64,000 nucleotides of DNA from Xanthobacteraceae bacterium (GTDB taxonomy: Bacteria; Pseudomonadota; Alphaproteobacteria; Rhizobiales; Xanthobacteraceae): assembly GCA_030041005.1 (NCBI GenBank), contig JASHOR010000102.1, forward strand, positions 1-64,000. The letters are read 5' to 3'. Of this stretch, positions 56,609 to 64,000 are shown in pieces. Position 1 is the first letter of the stretch; each line of letters opens with the position of its first letter. The translations under genes were made by a program, and so were the position numbers. The notes beneath the pieces were generated by a model. That model made no database searches. It saw nothing but the letters and a program-made list of their open reading frames with translations, and was not told the origin of the DNA.

Positions 56609-57583
56609 CTAATGCACGGGCTTGATGCCGGCCTCGTTTGCCACCTTGCTCCAAAGCTCACGTTCATCGGCGAAAAACTTCGCCGCCGCGGCTCGGCTGC
56701 CGGGAGCGAGATTCATGCCCATCGCCTTGGTCTTGGCGATGAAGGTGGGCTCCTTCATGCAGTCGACGATGTCGCGGTTGAGCTTATCGGCGAGCGCATC
56801 GGGTGTGCCCGGCGGCGCGACGATGCCGAAGAACGTCACCGCGCGAAAGCCCGGCATGCCAGCCTCCGCCAGTGTCGGCACGTTCGGCAGTTCCGGCACG
56901 CGGCTGGTCGCACCAACGGCTACGATCTTTTCCTTGCCTGCGCGGTAGAGCGGCAGCGCAGTGGCCATCATGTCGAACATCATGTCGTCGTGGCCGCCAA
57001 GTACGTCGGCGATCTCCGGACCCAGGCCATGGTAGGGCACCAACAAGAGCTTCACATGCGCGAGCAGCTCGAACTCGATCGTGGTGAAGTAGCCGAGCCC
57101 TCCGACTTCCGGCGTCGCCGTGGCGAGCGCCCCGGGGTTTGCCTTGGCGTCGGCGATCACCTGCGCCAGATTCGTGGCCGCAAAGTGCGGGCTCACCACC
57201 AGCACATAGGGCGAGGTCGCGACCACGGCGATCGGCACCCATTTCGCCGGGTCATAGGACATTGTTTTGTACACGAGGCTGTTGAGGGCGACCGGGCCGG
57301 GCGAGCCAAAGAGCAGCGTGTAGCCGTCCGGCGCCGCGTGCGCGACTTCCTCGCCGCCGATATTGCCTTCGGCGCCGCCCACGTTTTCGACGATGACCGT
57401 TTGCTTCCACTTCTGCTCGAGCTGCTGGGCGAGCACGCGTGCCAACAGATCGGTGCCGCCGCCGGGCGGATACGGCACGATCATCTTGACGGTGCGGGTC
57501 GGATAATTGGGCTGGGCGCGGCTGTGGCCGGTCTGCGCCGCTACCGCCAGCGCCGCCGCTACCGCAATGTGGATGACCTTCAT
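56609..57583 (-). CDS. TctC/Bug-type solute-binding protein (orphan)
   Basis: 324 residues. Signal peptide (IHIAVAAALAVAAQTGHSRA), then YPTRTVKMIVPYPPGGGTDLLARVLAQQLEQKW, VVENVGG-like NVGGAEGNIGGEEVAHAAPDGYTLLFGS, PYVLVVSPHFAATNLAQVIADAKANPGALA and NVPTLAEAGMPGFRAVTFFGIVAPPGTPDALADKLNRDI: a regular Bug receptor. GGGAGGA 5 bases before ATG 57583 gives a firm start. It is divergent from the next TctC protein with 321 bases between them. Confidence 0.93.
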   Translation of the reverse strand: MKVIHIAVAAALAVAAQTGHSRAQPNYPTRTVKMIVPYPPGGGTDLLARVLAQQLEQKWKQTVIVENVGGAEGNIGGEEVAHAAPDGYTLLFGSPGPVALNSLVYKTMSYDPAKWVPIAVVATSPYVLVVSPHFAATNLAQVIADAKANPGALATATPEVGGLGYFTTIEFELLAHVKLLLVPYHGLGPEIADVLGGHDDMMFDMMATALPLYRAGKEKIVAVGATSRVPELPNVPTLAEAGMPGFRAVTFFGIVAPPGTPDALADKLNRDIVDCMKEPTFIAKTKAMGMNLAPGSRAAAAKFFADERELWSKVANEAGIKPVH

Positions 57584-57904
57584 CGTTTCCTCCCTCAGCG
57601 TCCGTTGCGCGCCGCCGGTGCAGGCCGCGGAGCCTGATCCGATATTGACCGGCGGCGCGGTTTTCGTCCACGCGCCAAAGATAGGCAGAATGCCGCGGCA
57701 TCTTGGAAATTGCACCGCTCGGCGCAAAGGGCTGAAATGAGGCGCGCGACCACTGGGAAGAATGGCGCGGCTCGCGTTTCCCTGCACGCGCCGGCGCAAC
57801 CGGACGGGAGGAAGACGTGAAACGTCAAACAGCGGTATTCGCATTGTCACCGATTTAATATGCACCGTATCTGAAGTTCTCCTTCTTTGGCAGCGGAGGA
57901 AAAC

Positions 57905-58891
57905 ATGAAACAGAGATTCAAGATCGGAGTTTCGGGAATCTTGGCGCTCGCTGTGCTGGCGATGGTGACCGCGCCCGCGCACGCGGACCAATATCCGGAT
58001 AAACCGATCCGGGTCATTTCTGATTCGGCGCCCGGCAGCGCCGTCGACGTCATCTTCCGCATGGTGATGGATCGGCTCGGCAAAGTACTGGGCCAGCAGA
58101 TCGTGGCGGTCGATCAGCCCGGCGCCAGCGGGGCGATTGCGGCCCGCGCCGCCTCTGAGGCAGTCCCGGACGGCTACACGCTCTTCGCGCCGGCGCTTTC
58201 CCTGTTCATCTCCCTGCCCGGAAAGGCACCGAACCTTCCAGTCGTCTTGCCGCGCGACTTCCTGCCGGTCGGCTCGCTGGCCGACGAACCTTTGTTCATC
58301 TGCGCGAGCGCCAAATCGGGTCTCAAAACTCTGCCCGGCTTGATCGCCCGCGCCAAACGCCAACCCGGCGGCATCTCCTTTGCCGCAACGGGGATAGGAC
58401 GCCTGACACACCTGACCGGCCTGCTTGTGGAAAGCCGGGCCGGGATTAGATTGCAGGTCGTTCCGTATACCGGCGGCCCTGCGGCCGCGTTGCCGGATGT
58501 CATCGCCGGCCGCGTGCCGTTGATCATCGAAGGTTATTCCGGACTGGCCGGCGCCATTCGTGCGCACACGCTCAATGTGCTGGCCGTCGGATCGAGGCAT
58601 CGCCTGTCCGATTTTCCCAATGTGCCGACGGCGGCTGAGACGCTGCCGGGCGTTGTCTCCAGCGGATGGCAGGGCATCGTGGCGCCGCTTGGGACGCCGG
58701 CGGCGGATATCCGGAAGGTCAATGAAGCCCTGAAAAGAGCGCTCGGCGAGCCCGATCTGGCTACGCAACTGGCGCGGCGCGGCGCCTACGTCGATGCCAT
58801 GACGCCGCCCGAGGTCACGGCATTCATCAACGCGCAGCAATCGCAATGGAAGCCGGTCCTGCAGGCGTTCGAGGCCAGCATCAATAAATAA
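57905..58891 (+). CDS. TctC/Bug-type solute-binding protein (orphan)
   Basis: 328 residues. Signal peptide (GVSGILALAVLAMVTAPAHA), then YPDKPIRVISDSAPGSAVDVIFRMVMDRLG, VAVDQPGASGAIAARAASEAVPDGYTLFAP, DFLPVGSLADEPLFICAS, LQVVPYTGGPAAALPDVIAGRVPLIIEG and NVPTAAETLPGVVSSGWQGIVAPLGTP. The ligand-site sequence is SDSAPGSAVD, unlike the other three copies, so a different ligand is likely. GGAGG sits 5-6 bases before ATG 57905. Confidence 0.93.
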   Translation: MKQRFKIGVSGILALAVLAMVTAPAHADQYPDKPIRVISDSAPGSAVDVIFRMVMDRLGKVLGQQIVAVDQPGASGAIAARAASEAVPDGYTLFAPALSLFISLPGKAPNLPVVLPRDFLPVGSLADEPLFICASAKSGLKTLPGLIARAKRQPGGISFAATGIGRLTHLTGLLVESRAGIRLQVVPYTGGPAAALPDVIAGRVPLIIEGYSGLAGAIRAHTLNVLAVGSRHRLSDFPNVPTAAETLPGVVSSGWQGIVAPLGTPAADIRKVNEALKRALGEPDLATQLARRGAYVDAMTPPEVTAFINAQQSQWKPVLQAFEASINK

Positions 58892-58948
58892 CGGATTTTG
58901 CCGCACGAACAGTTTGTCGTCCGCCGGCAAAGTCCTGCCGGTTGGGAT

Positions 58949-59362
58949 TTACCGCGAGGACCCCGTTCCGGCCCTTCTGGGCGGAAGGCCTTTCCACAGG
59001 TTCTCTCGATTGCGGGCTGGATTCGTGCGTCGATGCGCTCCGGTCGGAGTGATCTCAAGCGCGGCTTCAAAAGCTCGCCGCAGCGCGAGACGGTCTATTC
59101 TGCGTGCGAAAATGTGCAATGCCGCCGTCGCCTGAGCACGATCCCTGGCGATGATCGCGTCGCAGACCTTGACGCTTGTTCTTTGAAAGAACGTGAATCC
59201 CGAGCGGTAACGGTCCATGTCAGCGGCCATAGCCATAAGGCTCGCCCGGTCAACCTCATTCAAAGTGATGGCAAAACGTAAAACAGCGAGCAGCCATTCC
59301 TCTACTGCGCGCGGGCCTCCGGGCTGACCGGTCTGTTCCGACTTGGTCACGTTCACCCTCAC
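58949..59362 (-). CDS. Unknown helical protein, coupled to the DapA-like gene
   Basis: 137 residues from a GTG that overlaps the DapA-like stop by four bases (GTGA). This coupling is the best evidence that it is real. The first 100 residues (PRAVEEWLLAVLRFAITLNEVDRASLMAMAADMDRY, FFQRTSVKVCDAIIARDRAQATAALHIFARRIDRLALRRAFEAALE) read as long helices. The end is basic and disordered. No family recognised. It fills most of the space 58892-59358. Confidence 0.6.
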   Translation of the reverse strand: MRVNVTKSEQTGQPGGPRAVEEWLLAVLRFAITLNEVDRASLMAMAADMDRYRSGFTFFQRTSVKVCDAIIARDRAQATAALHIFARRIDRLALRRAFEAALEITPTGAHRRTNPARNRENLWKGLPPRRAGTGSSR

Positions 59363-60345
59363 AAGCTCGGGAGCATACCGCGTTCATGTATCCCGGGTGA
59401 AGGGTTCGCAGACATGAGTGCCCGCGCAAGCACAAAATCAGAATATTTATTCCACAGCGTTTGTAAGGTCTCCGAGATCTCGCAACGGGTTTCTTCAGTG
59501 ACTTCGGCGAGCGGCAAGCGCACCCTCGGCGACATCGGTCCGCATAGACTGAGTGCGTATTTAAGCGGCGCTGGATTGGTTTCGCGGGCGAGAGCTGCGG
59601 TCAATTGCGAGAGCGGTATCATGAGCCGGCGAGCCCGCATCACGTTGCCTTGCCGCCACGCAAGATACATGGTTCGGCACAAGCCTGGCGCGATATTGGA
59701 AGCGACGGAAAAGCAGCCGTCGCCCCCCTGTGCCAAAAAGCCCAATGCCGTTGCGTCATCGCCGGACACAAGCCTGAAATCCGGGCCGACGAGGGCGCGC
59801 AGCCGCGAGGGTCGGCCGACATCGCCCGTTGCGTCCATGAGCCCGATAATCCGTGGTGTCTCGGCCAGCCGTGCGACAGTTTCATCGGCAAGACCGCGCA
59901 CTGTTCGCGACGGAACGTCGTGGAGAATGACAGGCAACCCCGTGCTGGCGACAATCTTGCGGTAATGCGCGCCGAGCCCTTGTTGAGTCGGCTTGTTATA
60001 GTAAGGGACAACCGAAAGCGTCGCGTCGGCGCCGTTCGCCTCGGCATTTTTGCTCAGCTCTATCGCGGTCGTCGTGGCGTTCGAGCCGGCCCCGGCAATC
60101 ACCGGCAGCCGGTGCCGCGCCACGCCTGCGGCAACGCGGGTCAATTCCCCATGTTCCAGCGGACTCAACGTCGACGCTTCACCGGTTGTAGCGGCGACGA
60201 CGAGCGCTGTAGCCCCATGCGTTATCTGTAGTTCGCAAAGCCATTCGAAGGTCTCATAATCGACCTTGTCATCGGCGGTGAACGGCGTGGGTAATGCAGG
60301 CGCGTAGCCTGTTAATTTTACGATGTGCCGGCCGATGTTGGACAT
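59359..60345 (-). CDS. DapA/NAL-superfamily protein with Met in place of the Schiff-base Lys
   Basis: 328 residues, a TIM barrel of the dihydrodipicolinate synthase/N-acetylneuraminate lyase superfamily. PALPTPFTADDKVDYETF, AATTGEASTLSPLEH (the TTGE substrate loop, T53-T54), VVPYYNKPTQQGLGAHY (catalytic-triad Tyr) and VILHDVPSRTVRGL are all normal. At the position of the catalytic lysine (GIKEATGD in DapA) this reads GLMDATGD, with Met170 encoded by ATG. Ordinary aldolase chemistry through an imine is thus not expected. An AAG to ATG change would give it. The last 40 residues are longer than usual. Paired with an unknown gene through a four-base overlap. True dapA is probably elsewhere. Confidence 0.88.
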   Translation of the reverse strand: MSNIGRHIVKLTGYAPALPTPFTADDKVDYETFEWLCELQITHGATALVVAATTGEASTLSPLEHGELTRVAAGVARHRLPVIAGAGSNATTTAIELSKNAEANGADATLSVVPYYNKPTQQGLGAHYRKIVASTGLPVILHDVPSRTVRGLADETVARLAETPRIIGLMDATGDVGRPSRLRALVGPDFRLVSGDDATALGFLAQGGDGCFSVASNIAPGLCRTMYLAWRQGNVMRARRLMIPLSQLTAALARETNPAPLKYALSLCGPMSPRVRLPLAEVTEETRCEISETLQTLWNKYSDFVLARALMSANPSPGIHERGMLPSL

Positions 60346-60360: not shown

Positions 60361-60663
60361 TCAAGCGGCCTGCCGTTGGCGGAAAGAGTTGTCAACAACC
60401 CGCTGGCGGGGTGTGACCGCCGGCGCAAAGCCGGTGTTGAGTTCTAAAATTTCGCCGACGCAGATGACGGCGTGGGGATGATTCCCGCTTTCAAATTTTG
60501 CGAATTTCAAGGCTTCCGTGCGATTGATGAACAACCCACCCCGAAGGCCGCTCTGCTCCTGGGCGACCCAGTGCCCCCCGCTGTCCCGGCCGATCATGAA
60601 TACTGATGGCTCCAAACACGAGGGAGGTTCGGAAGGTTCGGCGATTTCATCGGGTTGCTTCAC
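60361..60663 (-). CDS. Conserved hypothetical protein (Hyphomicrobiales small protein)
   Basis: 100 residues with SVFMIGRDSGGHWVAQEQSGLRGGLFINRTEALKFAKFESGNHPHAVICVGEILELN. The pattern 'IGRDSxGxWVAQ...GLFxxRxEALKFAxFENGxxP' is familiar from many uncharacterised proteins of this group. It is a small alpha-beta domain that may bind or cover another protein. It lies 15 bases upstream of the DapA-like gene, same strand, so it may be the first gene of that transcript. Confidence 0.7.
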   Translation of the reverse strand: MKQPDEIAEPSEPPSCLEPSVFMIGRDSGGHWVAQEQSGLRGGLFINRTEALKFAKFESGNHPHAVICVGEILELNTGFAPAVTPRQRVVDNSFRQRQAA

Positions 60664-61594: not shown

Positions 61595-63412
61595 ATGTGG
61601 ACGCTGCCCCTCCTGTTGCTCGCGGTGACCATTCTGCTCTCGATTCCGATGAGCAAATATTTTGCCTGGATCATGGACGGCCGCTACCGCGCACCGCGCG
61701 TGCTTGCGTGGTTCGAAGAGCGTCTTAACACCGGTCAGCAGAACTGGAAGCAGTACGTCATCGCGATGATGGCATTTACGGCCGTGCTGTTCACTTACGG
61801 CTACGTCGTCCTTTGCCTGCAGCCGATAGCGCCGCTCAATCCGCTCGGGCGAAGCATCCTCGCCCCTTCCTTGATCTTCAATACCGTCATTTCATTCCTG
61901 ACGAATACCAACCTGCAGCATTATTCGGGCGATCAGCACCTTTCGAATTTCAGCCAGATATTTTTCATCCTGCCGAACATGTTTCTGTCGGCGTCGATCG
62001 GCTTTTGCGCGCTGTCTGCGATCATTCGCGCATTTCGCGGCGAGGCGACTGTCGGCAACTTCTTCGTCGATATGTGGCGGGTTGTCGCCTACATCTACGT
62101 CCCGGCCGCGCTGATCATCGGTGCCATCTTCATTCATGAGGGCATGCCGATGACCTACCAAAGCGAGCAGACTGTCACCACGCTCGAACCGGCATCGATG
62201 GGCGTGGACGATCACGGCGCGGCCAAGCCGCAGAACATCATCGTTGGGCCGGTCGCCGCAGTCATTCCGATCAAGATGCTCGGCACTAACGGCGGCGGTT
62301 TCTACGGCATGAACTCCGCCGTGCCGCTCGAGAATCCGACGGCGGTATCAAATTTCGTCACGACGTTCGCCATGATGATCTTCCCGTTCAGCCTGGTGCT
62401 GATGTTCGGGCGCATGCTGGGGCGAATACGCCACTCGGTCGTCATCTATTGCGTGATGCTGGCGATGATGGTCGGGTTGATCTGGTGGACGATCAATTGG
62501 GACACGCTGCGACCCAACCCGGCGTTTACCGGAACGTCAGTCGAACGCAGTTACCAGATCGCTGACGCAACCGCGCCCGGCGGTCATCGCGCAGTCGTGC
62601 TGCCGGCAGTCGCGAGCCTGCCCGTCGACCAGAGTCTCGGCAATCTCGAAGGCAAGGAATTGCGCTTCGGCACCTCGGCCGGCGCCGTCTTTGCCGCCGT
62701 CACTACCGACGTGACCTGCGGCGCGGTGAACGGGGAGATGGACAGTCTCAACCCGACCGCCAGCCTGTCGCCGTTTATCGGCATGTGGCTCAACTGCGTG
62801 TTTGGCGGCAAGGGCGTGGGCATGATCAACCTGCTTTTGTTCCTCATCATCGGCGTCTTCCTCGCCGGACAGATGGTCGGGCGCAGTCCCGAATATCTTG
62901 GCCGTAAAGTGGGCGCGCGCGAAATGAAGCTCGCGGTGATCGCGCTGCTCGTTCACCCGTTCCTCATCCTCGGACCGAGCGGCTTGTTCGCCGCCACCGG
63001 CTGGGGCACAGGCGCGGAAAGCAATCCGGGCGCGCACGGCTTCTCGCAGATCGTCTATCAATTCTCATCGGCGTCGGCCAACAATGGCTCGGCGTTCGAC
63101 GGTCTCGGTGTGACCTACGGATTTAACAACAATCCCAACCCGGCGCCGGAGGCCGTGCCGTTGGACATTGCCACCGGCTTGGTCATGCTGTTCTCGCGCT
63201 ATCTGCCGATCATCGCACCGATCGCCATGGCCTTTTTCCTCGGCCGCAAGAAGGTGGCGCCAGCCTCGCTGGGCACAATGCGCGATGACACGATCACCTT
63301 TGGCGTCCTGTTGCTAGGGACCATCATCATCATCGGCGCTCTCCTCTTTCTTCCAGTCGCGGCACTCGGCCCGCTCGCCGAGCACTTCGGGCCAATTCCG
63401 TTCGGCGGCTAA
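61595..63412 (+). CDS. kdpA: KdpA, potassium-binding subunit of the K+-transporting ATPase
   Basis: 605 residues, somewhat longer than the about 560 of E. coli KdpA. It is the channel-like subunit with four pore-loop units. Filter regions seen: TNTNLQHYSGD, LGTNGGGFYGMNSAVPLENPT, TCGAVNGEMDSLNPTASL and SASANNGSAFDGLG. About ten membrane helices. An extra stretch (about residues 310-360, VERSYQIADATAPGGHRAVVLPAVAS) accounts for part of the added length. It follows kdpF by 57 bases and precedes kdpB by 38. Confidence 0.95.
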   Translation: MWTLPLLLLAVTILLSIPMSKYFAWIMDGRYRAPRVLAWFEERLNTGQQNWKQYVIAMMAFTAVLFTYGYVVLCLQPIAPLNPLGRSILAPSLIFNTVISFLTNTNLQHYSGDQHLSNFSQIFFILPNMFLSASIGFCALSAIIRAFRGEATVGNFFVDMWRVVAYIYVPAALIIGAIFIHEGMPMTYQSEQTVTTLEPASMGVDDHGAAKPQNIIVGPVAAVIPIKMLGTNGGGFYGMNSAVPLENPTAVSNFVTTFAMMIFPFSLVLMFGRMLGRIRHSVVIYCVMLAMMVGLIWWTINWDTLRPNPAFTGTSVERSYQIADATAPGGHRAVVLPAVASLPVDQSLGNLEGKELRFGTSAGAVFAAVTTDVTCGAVNGEMDSLNPTASLSPFIGMWLNCVFGGKGVGMINLLLFLIIGVFLAGQMVGRSPEYLGRKVGAREMKLAVIALLVHPFLILGPSGLFAATGWGTGAESNPGAHGFSQIVYQFSSASANNGSAFDGLGVTYGFNNNPNPAPEAVPLDIATGLVMLFSRYLPIIAPIAMAFFLGRKKVAPASLGTMRDDTITFGVLLLGTIIIIGALLFLPVAALGPLAEHFGPIPFGG

Positions 63413-63450
63413 GCCCGATCCCGCTGCAACATTCGTTATGGAGCATGGCC

Positions 63451-64000
63451 ATGGAAATCGTAGGCCCAACGACGCACGATAGAAAAGGCGGCAGGTGGCA
63501 GCAGCTGTTCTCGACTCCCCTGGTGCTCAGCGCCATGAAGCAGTCGTTGATCATGCTGCGGCCCGACATCCAGTGGCAAAACCCGGTGATGTTCGTCGTC
63601 GAGATTGGTGCGCTCTTGACGCTGGCGTTCATCCTGCGCGCCGTGTTCGGCGGCGCTGCAGGGCCGTTCTCGCTCGGCTATTTCGTGGCGTTGGACTTCT
63701 GGCTGTGGCTGACGGTGCTGTTCGCCAACTTCGCGACCGCGTTCGCCGAGGAGCGCGGGCGGGCGCAGGCTGAGTTTCTCCGTCGCACCCGCGTTGCCAC
63801 GCCCGCCAAGCGTTTGCTCGCCGATGGACGTACTGAAGACATCACCTCAATCCGGCTGAAGCCCGGCGATTGCGTCGTAGTGAACGCGGGAGAACCGATT
63901 CCCGGTGACGGCGAGGTCATCGAGGGCATCGCGTCGGTAGACGAATCCGCAATCACCGGCGAGTCGGCGCCGGTGCTCCGCGAAGCCGGCGGCGACCGTT
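63451..64000 (+). CDS. kdpB: KdpB, catalytic subunit of the K+-transporting ATPase (runs off the window)
   Basis: 183 codons seen, open to the right edge. It is a P-type ATPase: early helices (MFVVEIGALLTLAFILRAVF, FWLWLTVLFANFATAFAEERGRAQAEFLRRTR), then the actuator domain with PGDCVVVNAGEPIPGDGEVIEG and the SVDESAITGESAPV loop (TGES phosphatase motif). The DKTG phosphorylation site lies beyond the end. ATG 63451 has GGAG 7 bases upstream; ATG 63445 would leave only one base of spacing. Confidence 0.95.
   Translation, partial: MEIVGPTTHDRKGGRWQQLFSTPLVLSAMKQSLIMLRPDIQWQNPVMFVVEIGALLTLAFILRAVFGGAAGPFSLGYFVALDFWLWLTVLFANFATAFAEERGRAQAEFLRRTRVATPAKRLLADGRTEDITSIRLKPGDCVVVNAGEPIPGDGEVIEGIASVDESAITGESAPVLREAGGDR

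Follow-up and report, generated by a model that had tools for sequence, protein, structure and literature searches.

Whether a protein of the DHDPS fold can stay in use once the lysine of its Schiff base has gone is the question raised by a DapA-like gene in the stretch of Xanthobacteraceae DNA analysed here (64,000 nucleotides, referred to as the window). In the part of PMC13398020 available, members of the DHDPS/NAL superfamily are described as aldolases of class I, in which a lysine is catalytic. The gene lies on the minus strand at 59359..60345, where the open frame is intact, as the sequence-only reading of this DNA had stated, and codes for 328 amino acids. Its product matches PF00701 over nearly the full length of the profile (265 bits, profile positions 2-288 of 289) and passes the cut-off of the NCBIfam dapA equivalog TIGR00674 with 282.9 bits against 206.15. 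A separate dapA of the ordinary kind lies elsewhere in the genome, on a different contig, and identity of the window protein to ordinary copies is about 39-48%.

The absence of the Schiff-base lysine, the central claim of the sequence-only reading, was borne out: codon 170 (59836..59838, minus strand), the equivalent of E. coli Lys161, is ATG and places Met where most relatives have Lys. The accompanying claim that all other landmarks of the superfamily are kept holds for the TTGE loop, for YYNKPTQ and for the Arg of DVPSR, but fails at two further positions. Codon 142 (59920..59922, minus strand) is CAC and replaces the catalytic Tyr (E. coli Tyr133) with a His that directly precedes the (N/D)VP(G/S)R motif, of which the sequence-only reading had quoted no more than DVPSR, thereby overlooking the change, and Ala52 takes the place of E. 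coli Gly43, the residue before the TTGE loop. The proton-relay triad (Thr44, Tyr107 and Tyr133 in E. coli) is thus incomplete, with Thr53 and Tyr116 kept and His142 as the third member, while the active-site Arg (E. coli Arg138) is present as Arg147 and is conserved in 108/108 members of the subfamily defined below. At positions 17, 52, 142 and 170 the window protein reads Ala/Ala/His/Met, so that the acidic pair of a class II-like lyase working without a Schiff base is absent as well (Ala17, Ala52).

In a first alignment of 115 relatives, in which the window gene was counted twice, the four closest relatives (62-71% identity) have Lys and the next four (49-59%) have Arg, Cys, Arg and Arg. A profile made from eight members (A1) was run against 391 genomes from the family to which the window belongs and against 397 from the order, and its scores split into an upper group of at least about 376 bits, comprising 108 distinct sequences, and a lower group of at most 365 bits. 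All 108 upper-group sequences were taken as the subfamily; two genomes carry two each. The order draw contributed 12 rows to the upper group, all from the window's own family, with 364 bits as the best score outside it. A second profile (A4), built from 25 members with His at position 142 and giving bit scores that are not comparable with those of A1, was searched in a class draw of 289 genomes and gave 434 bits for the window and 364 for the next genome (locus L261, Ala/Gly/Tyr/Lys at the four positions). Among the genomes sampled in the family, order and class draws, the subfamily is confined to the window's bacterial family. The active site of the His group was found neither in the 19 class-draw loci examined besides the window, 19/19 of which read Ala/Gly/Tyr/Lys, nor in the three top-ranked plasmid records examined; the plasmid searches (1353 records and 360 records) returned only matches below 60% identity. 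No solved structure of a subfamily member was evident by name among the 35 matches listed, of which the best two were viewed as alignments.

Within the subfamily, His replaces the catalytic Tyr in 94/108 members and Lys is absent from 88/108 (71 Arg, 10 Cys and seven others including one Met). The combinations at the Tyr and Lys positions are His/Arg in 71, Tyr/Lys in 14, His/Cys in 10 and His/Lys in six sequences, followed by His/Ser and His/Val in two each and by His/Met (the window), His/Asp and His/Asn in one each. Tyr without Lys occurs in none of the 108, and the six His/Lys sequences are the only ones that combine His with Lys. Tyr and Lys are both present in 113/113 ordinary relatives, a set gathered by similarity rather than as a random sample of DapA and counted after four distant sequences had been dropped. 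The loss of Lys in the subfamily is more than chance (88/108 vs 0/113). A subfamily marked by Met, which the sequence-only reading had proposed to look for, was rejected, as Met stands at position 170 in one of 108 members and the four closest relatives have Lys; the opposite outcome that it had named as a refutation, a lone change among homologues that all have Lys, is equally contradicted by the 88 lysine-less members.

The replacement of Tyr is accompanied by changes at two further positions. Asp17 is found in 89/94 His members, where 113/113 ordinary relatives have Ala, and Glu52 or Asp52 in 86/94, where 113/113 ordinary relatives have Gly; both positions are acidic in 83/94. Given where they fall in the strands of the barrel, adjoining known active-site residues, positions 17 and 52 probably face the pocket. 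Partial sets lie outside the large His clade in the best tree, namely L209 (Ala/Asp/His/Lys), L227 (Ala/Glu/His/Asp) and L250 (Phe/Asp/His/Val).

Trees place the window copy apart from most of the lysine-less sequences. In a broad tree, for which columns 142 and 170 were left out, support is 100 for the subfamily as a single group and also 100 for a clade of 90 His sequences within it; the window is joined to L009, a Tyr/Lys protein (97). A careful tree of 46 rows recovers the window and L009 together at 99/93 and the sampled His clade separately at 99/99, with L261 (Ala/Gly/Tyr/Lys) as sister to the subfamily (100/100). Because the window groups with a Tyr/Lys protein and apart from the His clade, its His and Met arose separately from those of the large clade. 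The best tree requires five Tyr/His changes, and several of its basal forks are open. A coupling of His with the loss of Lys has a structural reason in E. coli DHDPS, where the Tyr133 hydroxyl lies 2.9 A from the Lys161 amine according to the part of PMC3369909 available. Statistical proof of this coupling was sought and given up as underpowered (p 0.5), since the few events leave two independent pairs on supported branches and hence a test that is powerless.

The gene is part of a small cassette. Upstream of it, on the same strand and ending 15 bases before its start, lies a gene for a protein of 100 amino acids (60361..60663, minus strand), predicted to fold as beta-beta-beta-alpha-beta with a mean pLDDT of 79. 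Its conservation, noted before, was confirmed with a homologue in 82/89 loci, close to the DapA-like gene in 80/89; neither Pfam nor NCBIfam gave a match to it, and none of the solved folds resembled it at E 0.001 or better. On the other side, a gene at 58949..59362 (minus strand) encodes 137 amino acids from a GTG and has homologues in 34/89 loci. The product is indeed helical, as had been supposed, with five predicted helices and a mean pLDDT of 82. The four-base overlap reported between the two genes stands if the GTG at 59362 is the start, but another in-frame GTG is present at 59356. An assignment of the helical protein to FCD/GntR, suspected from its sequence, was rejected: neither Pfam nor NCBIfam lends it support, and solved folds gave no match that reached E 0.001.

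Divergently from the cassette, the window encodes KdpA (605 amino acids, 61595..63412, plus strand) and the start of kdpB (63445..64000, plus strand), and kdpC and a response-regulator gene follow beyond the window (L126). Across the 89 fetched stretches kdpA is present on 55, upstream and divergent in 53 of these, and absent from 34; where 4 kb or more of upstream sequence was available (69 loci), kdpA is present in 46 and missing from 23. In the first 80 of the 107 genomes of genus g24, KdpA was found in 73, and the DapA-like gene in 42 of these 73 and in none of the seven genomes without KdpA (Fisher p 0.004, a value that ignores shared ancestry); 31/73 genomes with KdpA are without the gene. 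In the 42 genomes that have both, the distance to kdpA is at most 6 kb in 37 and 21 kb in one, and the two genes lie on different contigs in four. The neighbouring KdpA proteins are not of one kind. That of the window scores 590 bits and shares at most 39% identity with the KdpA of any other cassette stretch; an unlinked second KdpA of the same genome (C16) scores 805. In genome G022 the linked KdpA belongs to a third type, at most 50% identical to the others, and an unlinked KdpA scores 812 bits. That the cassette adjoins three distinct KdpA lineages speaks for a working link to kdp, beyond inherited gene order alone.

Taking these observations together, the explanation that we favour, with somewhat better than even confidence, is that the gene encodes a functional, kdp-linked paralogue of DapA that has dispensed with the Schiff base. 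In E. coli the Tyr-to-Phe variant lowers kcat 177-fold and the Lys-to-Ala variant 1,127-fold, as quoted in the available part of PMC3188589, and with both Tyr and Lys lost a Schiff-base reaction should no longer run fast enough to be of use. Tyr would have been replaced by His more than once in the subfamily, and with His present the Lys position would have been free to change. An oxo-acid-like ligand might then be bound non-covalently through Thr53, Tyr116, Arg147 and His142, with Tyr116, by homology, presumably contributed by the neighbouring subunit. In the large sister clade, Asp17, Glu52 and His142 could turn this ligand over by acid-base or metal-assisted chemistry. For lack of the Asp17/Glu52 pair, the window copy may be limited to binding or to weak activity, and counted against this explanation is that the window copy is a single sequence without these two acids.

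An alternative of appreciable but lower probability is that the barrel is a pseudoenzyme, which senses an oxo acid or an amino acid and, with its two small partners, regulates potassium uptake or the genes for it. Such a role is consistent with the loss of both Tyr and Lys, with the variability of position 170 (R, C, K, S, V, M, D, N), with partner proteins that have no recognised family or solved fold and with the kdp neighbourhood. However, a pure binder would not need the acids found at both 17 and 52 in 83/94 His members, and no regulator domain was detected in the proteins scanned. A more far-reaching version of the favoured explanation, which we put forward tentatively and would not expect to hold in full, is that a lineage of the DHDPS fold left the Schiff base and rebuilt its site on Asp17, Glu52 and His142 as a metal- or acid-base-dependent enzyme serving potassium-limited cells, the window copy being a separate, partial run along the same path.

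We consider it unlikely that the window copy is the product of erosion in its own lineage, with catalysis lost by chance after an ancestral Tyr/Lys protein had become dispensable. Its nearest relatives do have Tyr and Lys, its Met is unique among the 108 and the gene was found in only 4/20 genomes of the window's genus, several of which are incomplete. The third-position GC of the gene is also lower (0.67, with 0.64-0.67 for the three cassette genes, against 0.80 for both kdpA and the ordinary dapA), which could reflect weaker selection or later arrival. Against erosion stands that the window copy departs from just one of the 49 columns in which at least 97% of the subfamily agree and that Tyr-to-His changes, as described above, also occurred in other lineages. 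Eleven pairs within the His group with unsaturated dS have dN/dS values of 0.068-0.271, and such low values indicate that the His clade is not decaying. Pairs of the window with its nearest relatives give 0.07-0.15, although dS is saturated at 2.0-2.8 and the constraint on the window branch itself is therefore poorly measured. The earlier judgement that simple decay is unlikely agrees with the single broken column, with the conserved cassette and with the 88 lysine-less members of the subfamily.

That the protein acts as a slow DHDPS-like aldolase without lysine seems very improbable. The little activity that the E. coli Lys-to-Ala variant retains, together with a score above the dapA cut-off, would allow for it, and the earlier statement that an imine-type reaction is not possible without the lysine was too strong in view of a kcat that is reduced but not abolished (PMC3188589). 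In the window protein, however, Tyr is lost as well, the change of which to Phe is costly in E. coli by itself, and the genome has its ordinary dapA elsewhere. That codon 170 reflects an error of sequencing or assembly can practically be dismissed, for although AAG and ATG differ by one base and the assembly is fragmented (188 contigs), the frame is intact, a second active-site codon is changed too and His with a residue other than Lys recurs in 87 other subfamily members.

L-2-keto-3-deoxyarabonate dehydratase (KdaD) has Glu at the position of the catalytic Tyr (PMC13398020) and so shares with the window protein the superfamily and the absence of this Tyr; unlike the window protein, KdaD, compared here by its published description, is a class I enzyme with a Schiff-base Lys according to the part of that source available, and its signature of Glu for Tyr with the catalytic Lys kept is not that of His142 and Met170. 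Human HOGA1 is a relative in which variants of both residues have been assayed, and no detectable activity was reported for either Y168F or K196A (PMC3188589, as far as available). From ordinary DapA/DHDPS, with which it shares the family and Thr53, Tyr116 and Arg147, the window protein differs in the changes of Lys to Met and of Tyr133 to His, in its kdp neighbours and in the ordinary dapA encoded elsewhere in the genome.

Class II pyruvate aldolases (HpcH/HpaI) need no Schiff base, as acidic residues and Arg act on the enolate of pyruvate. The likeness to these enzymes is one of idea only, as they belong to a different family and the window protein lacks the acidic pair. No report of a lysine-less DHDPS subfamily or of its link to kdp was found in the literature searched, in which subscription journals were partly covered.

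The name DapA is probably wrong for these proteins. Two lysine-less sisters were scanned, a His/Cys and a His/Arg protein, and both exceed the cut-off of the dapA equivalog (256 and 284 bits against 206), so that annotation by this model would call them DapA; the standard model accepts proteins without the key residues. If constrained, a lysine-less subfamily would be a natural record of an enzyme leaving covalent catalysis, with the Tyr/Lys, His/Lys and His/Arg forms as surviving intermediates, and the kdp potassium locus would gain a partner cassette.

Several further features surround the cassette. The kdp operon of the window is unusual past the window end (L126, 5604-7382), where kdpC encodes 338 amino acids with two KdpC-matching stretches and directly after kdpC follows the response regulator, for which no sensor kinase was recognised by eye in the list of open reading frames. 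Just downstream of the cassette lie TctC-type solute receptors (PF03401) at 57887-58891 (plus strand) and 56612-57628 (minus strand, inside the open reading frame 56609-58930), and similar neighbours were seen on the fetched stretches of only L209 and L228 among the other 88 loci. Gene clusters near the cassette include Ku in eight loci and DNA ligase D in 12, and the stretches of L240 and L243 are without kdpA. In 28 loci, for example L242, the gene of the small protein has upstream of it, on the same strand, one for a conserved protein of about 200 amino acids with no Pfam family. A number of loci, among them L181, L199 and L211, have two homologues of the small upstream protein, the second of them on the downstream side of the DapA-like gene at a distance of about 740 bases.
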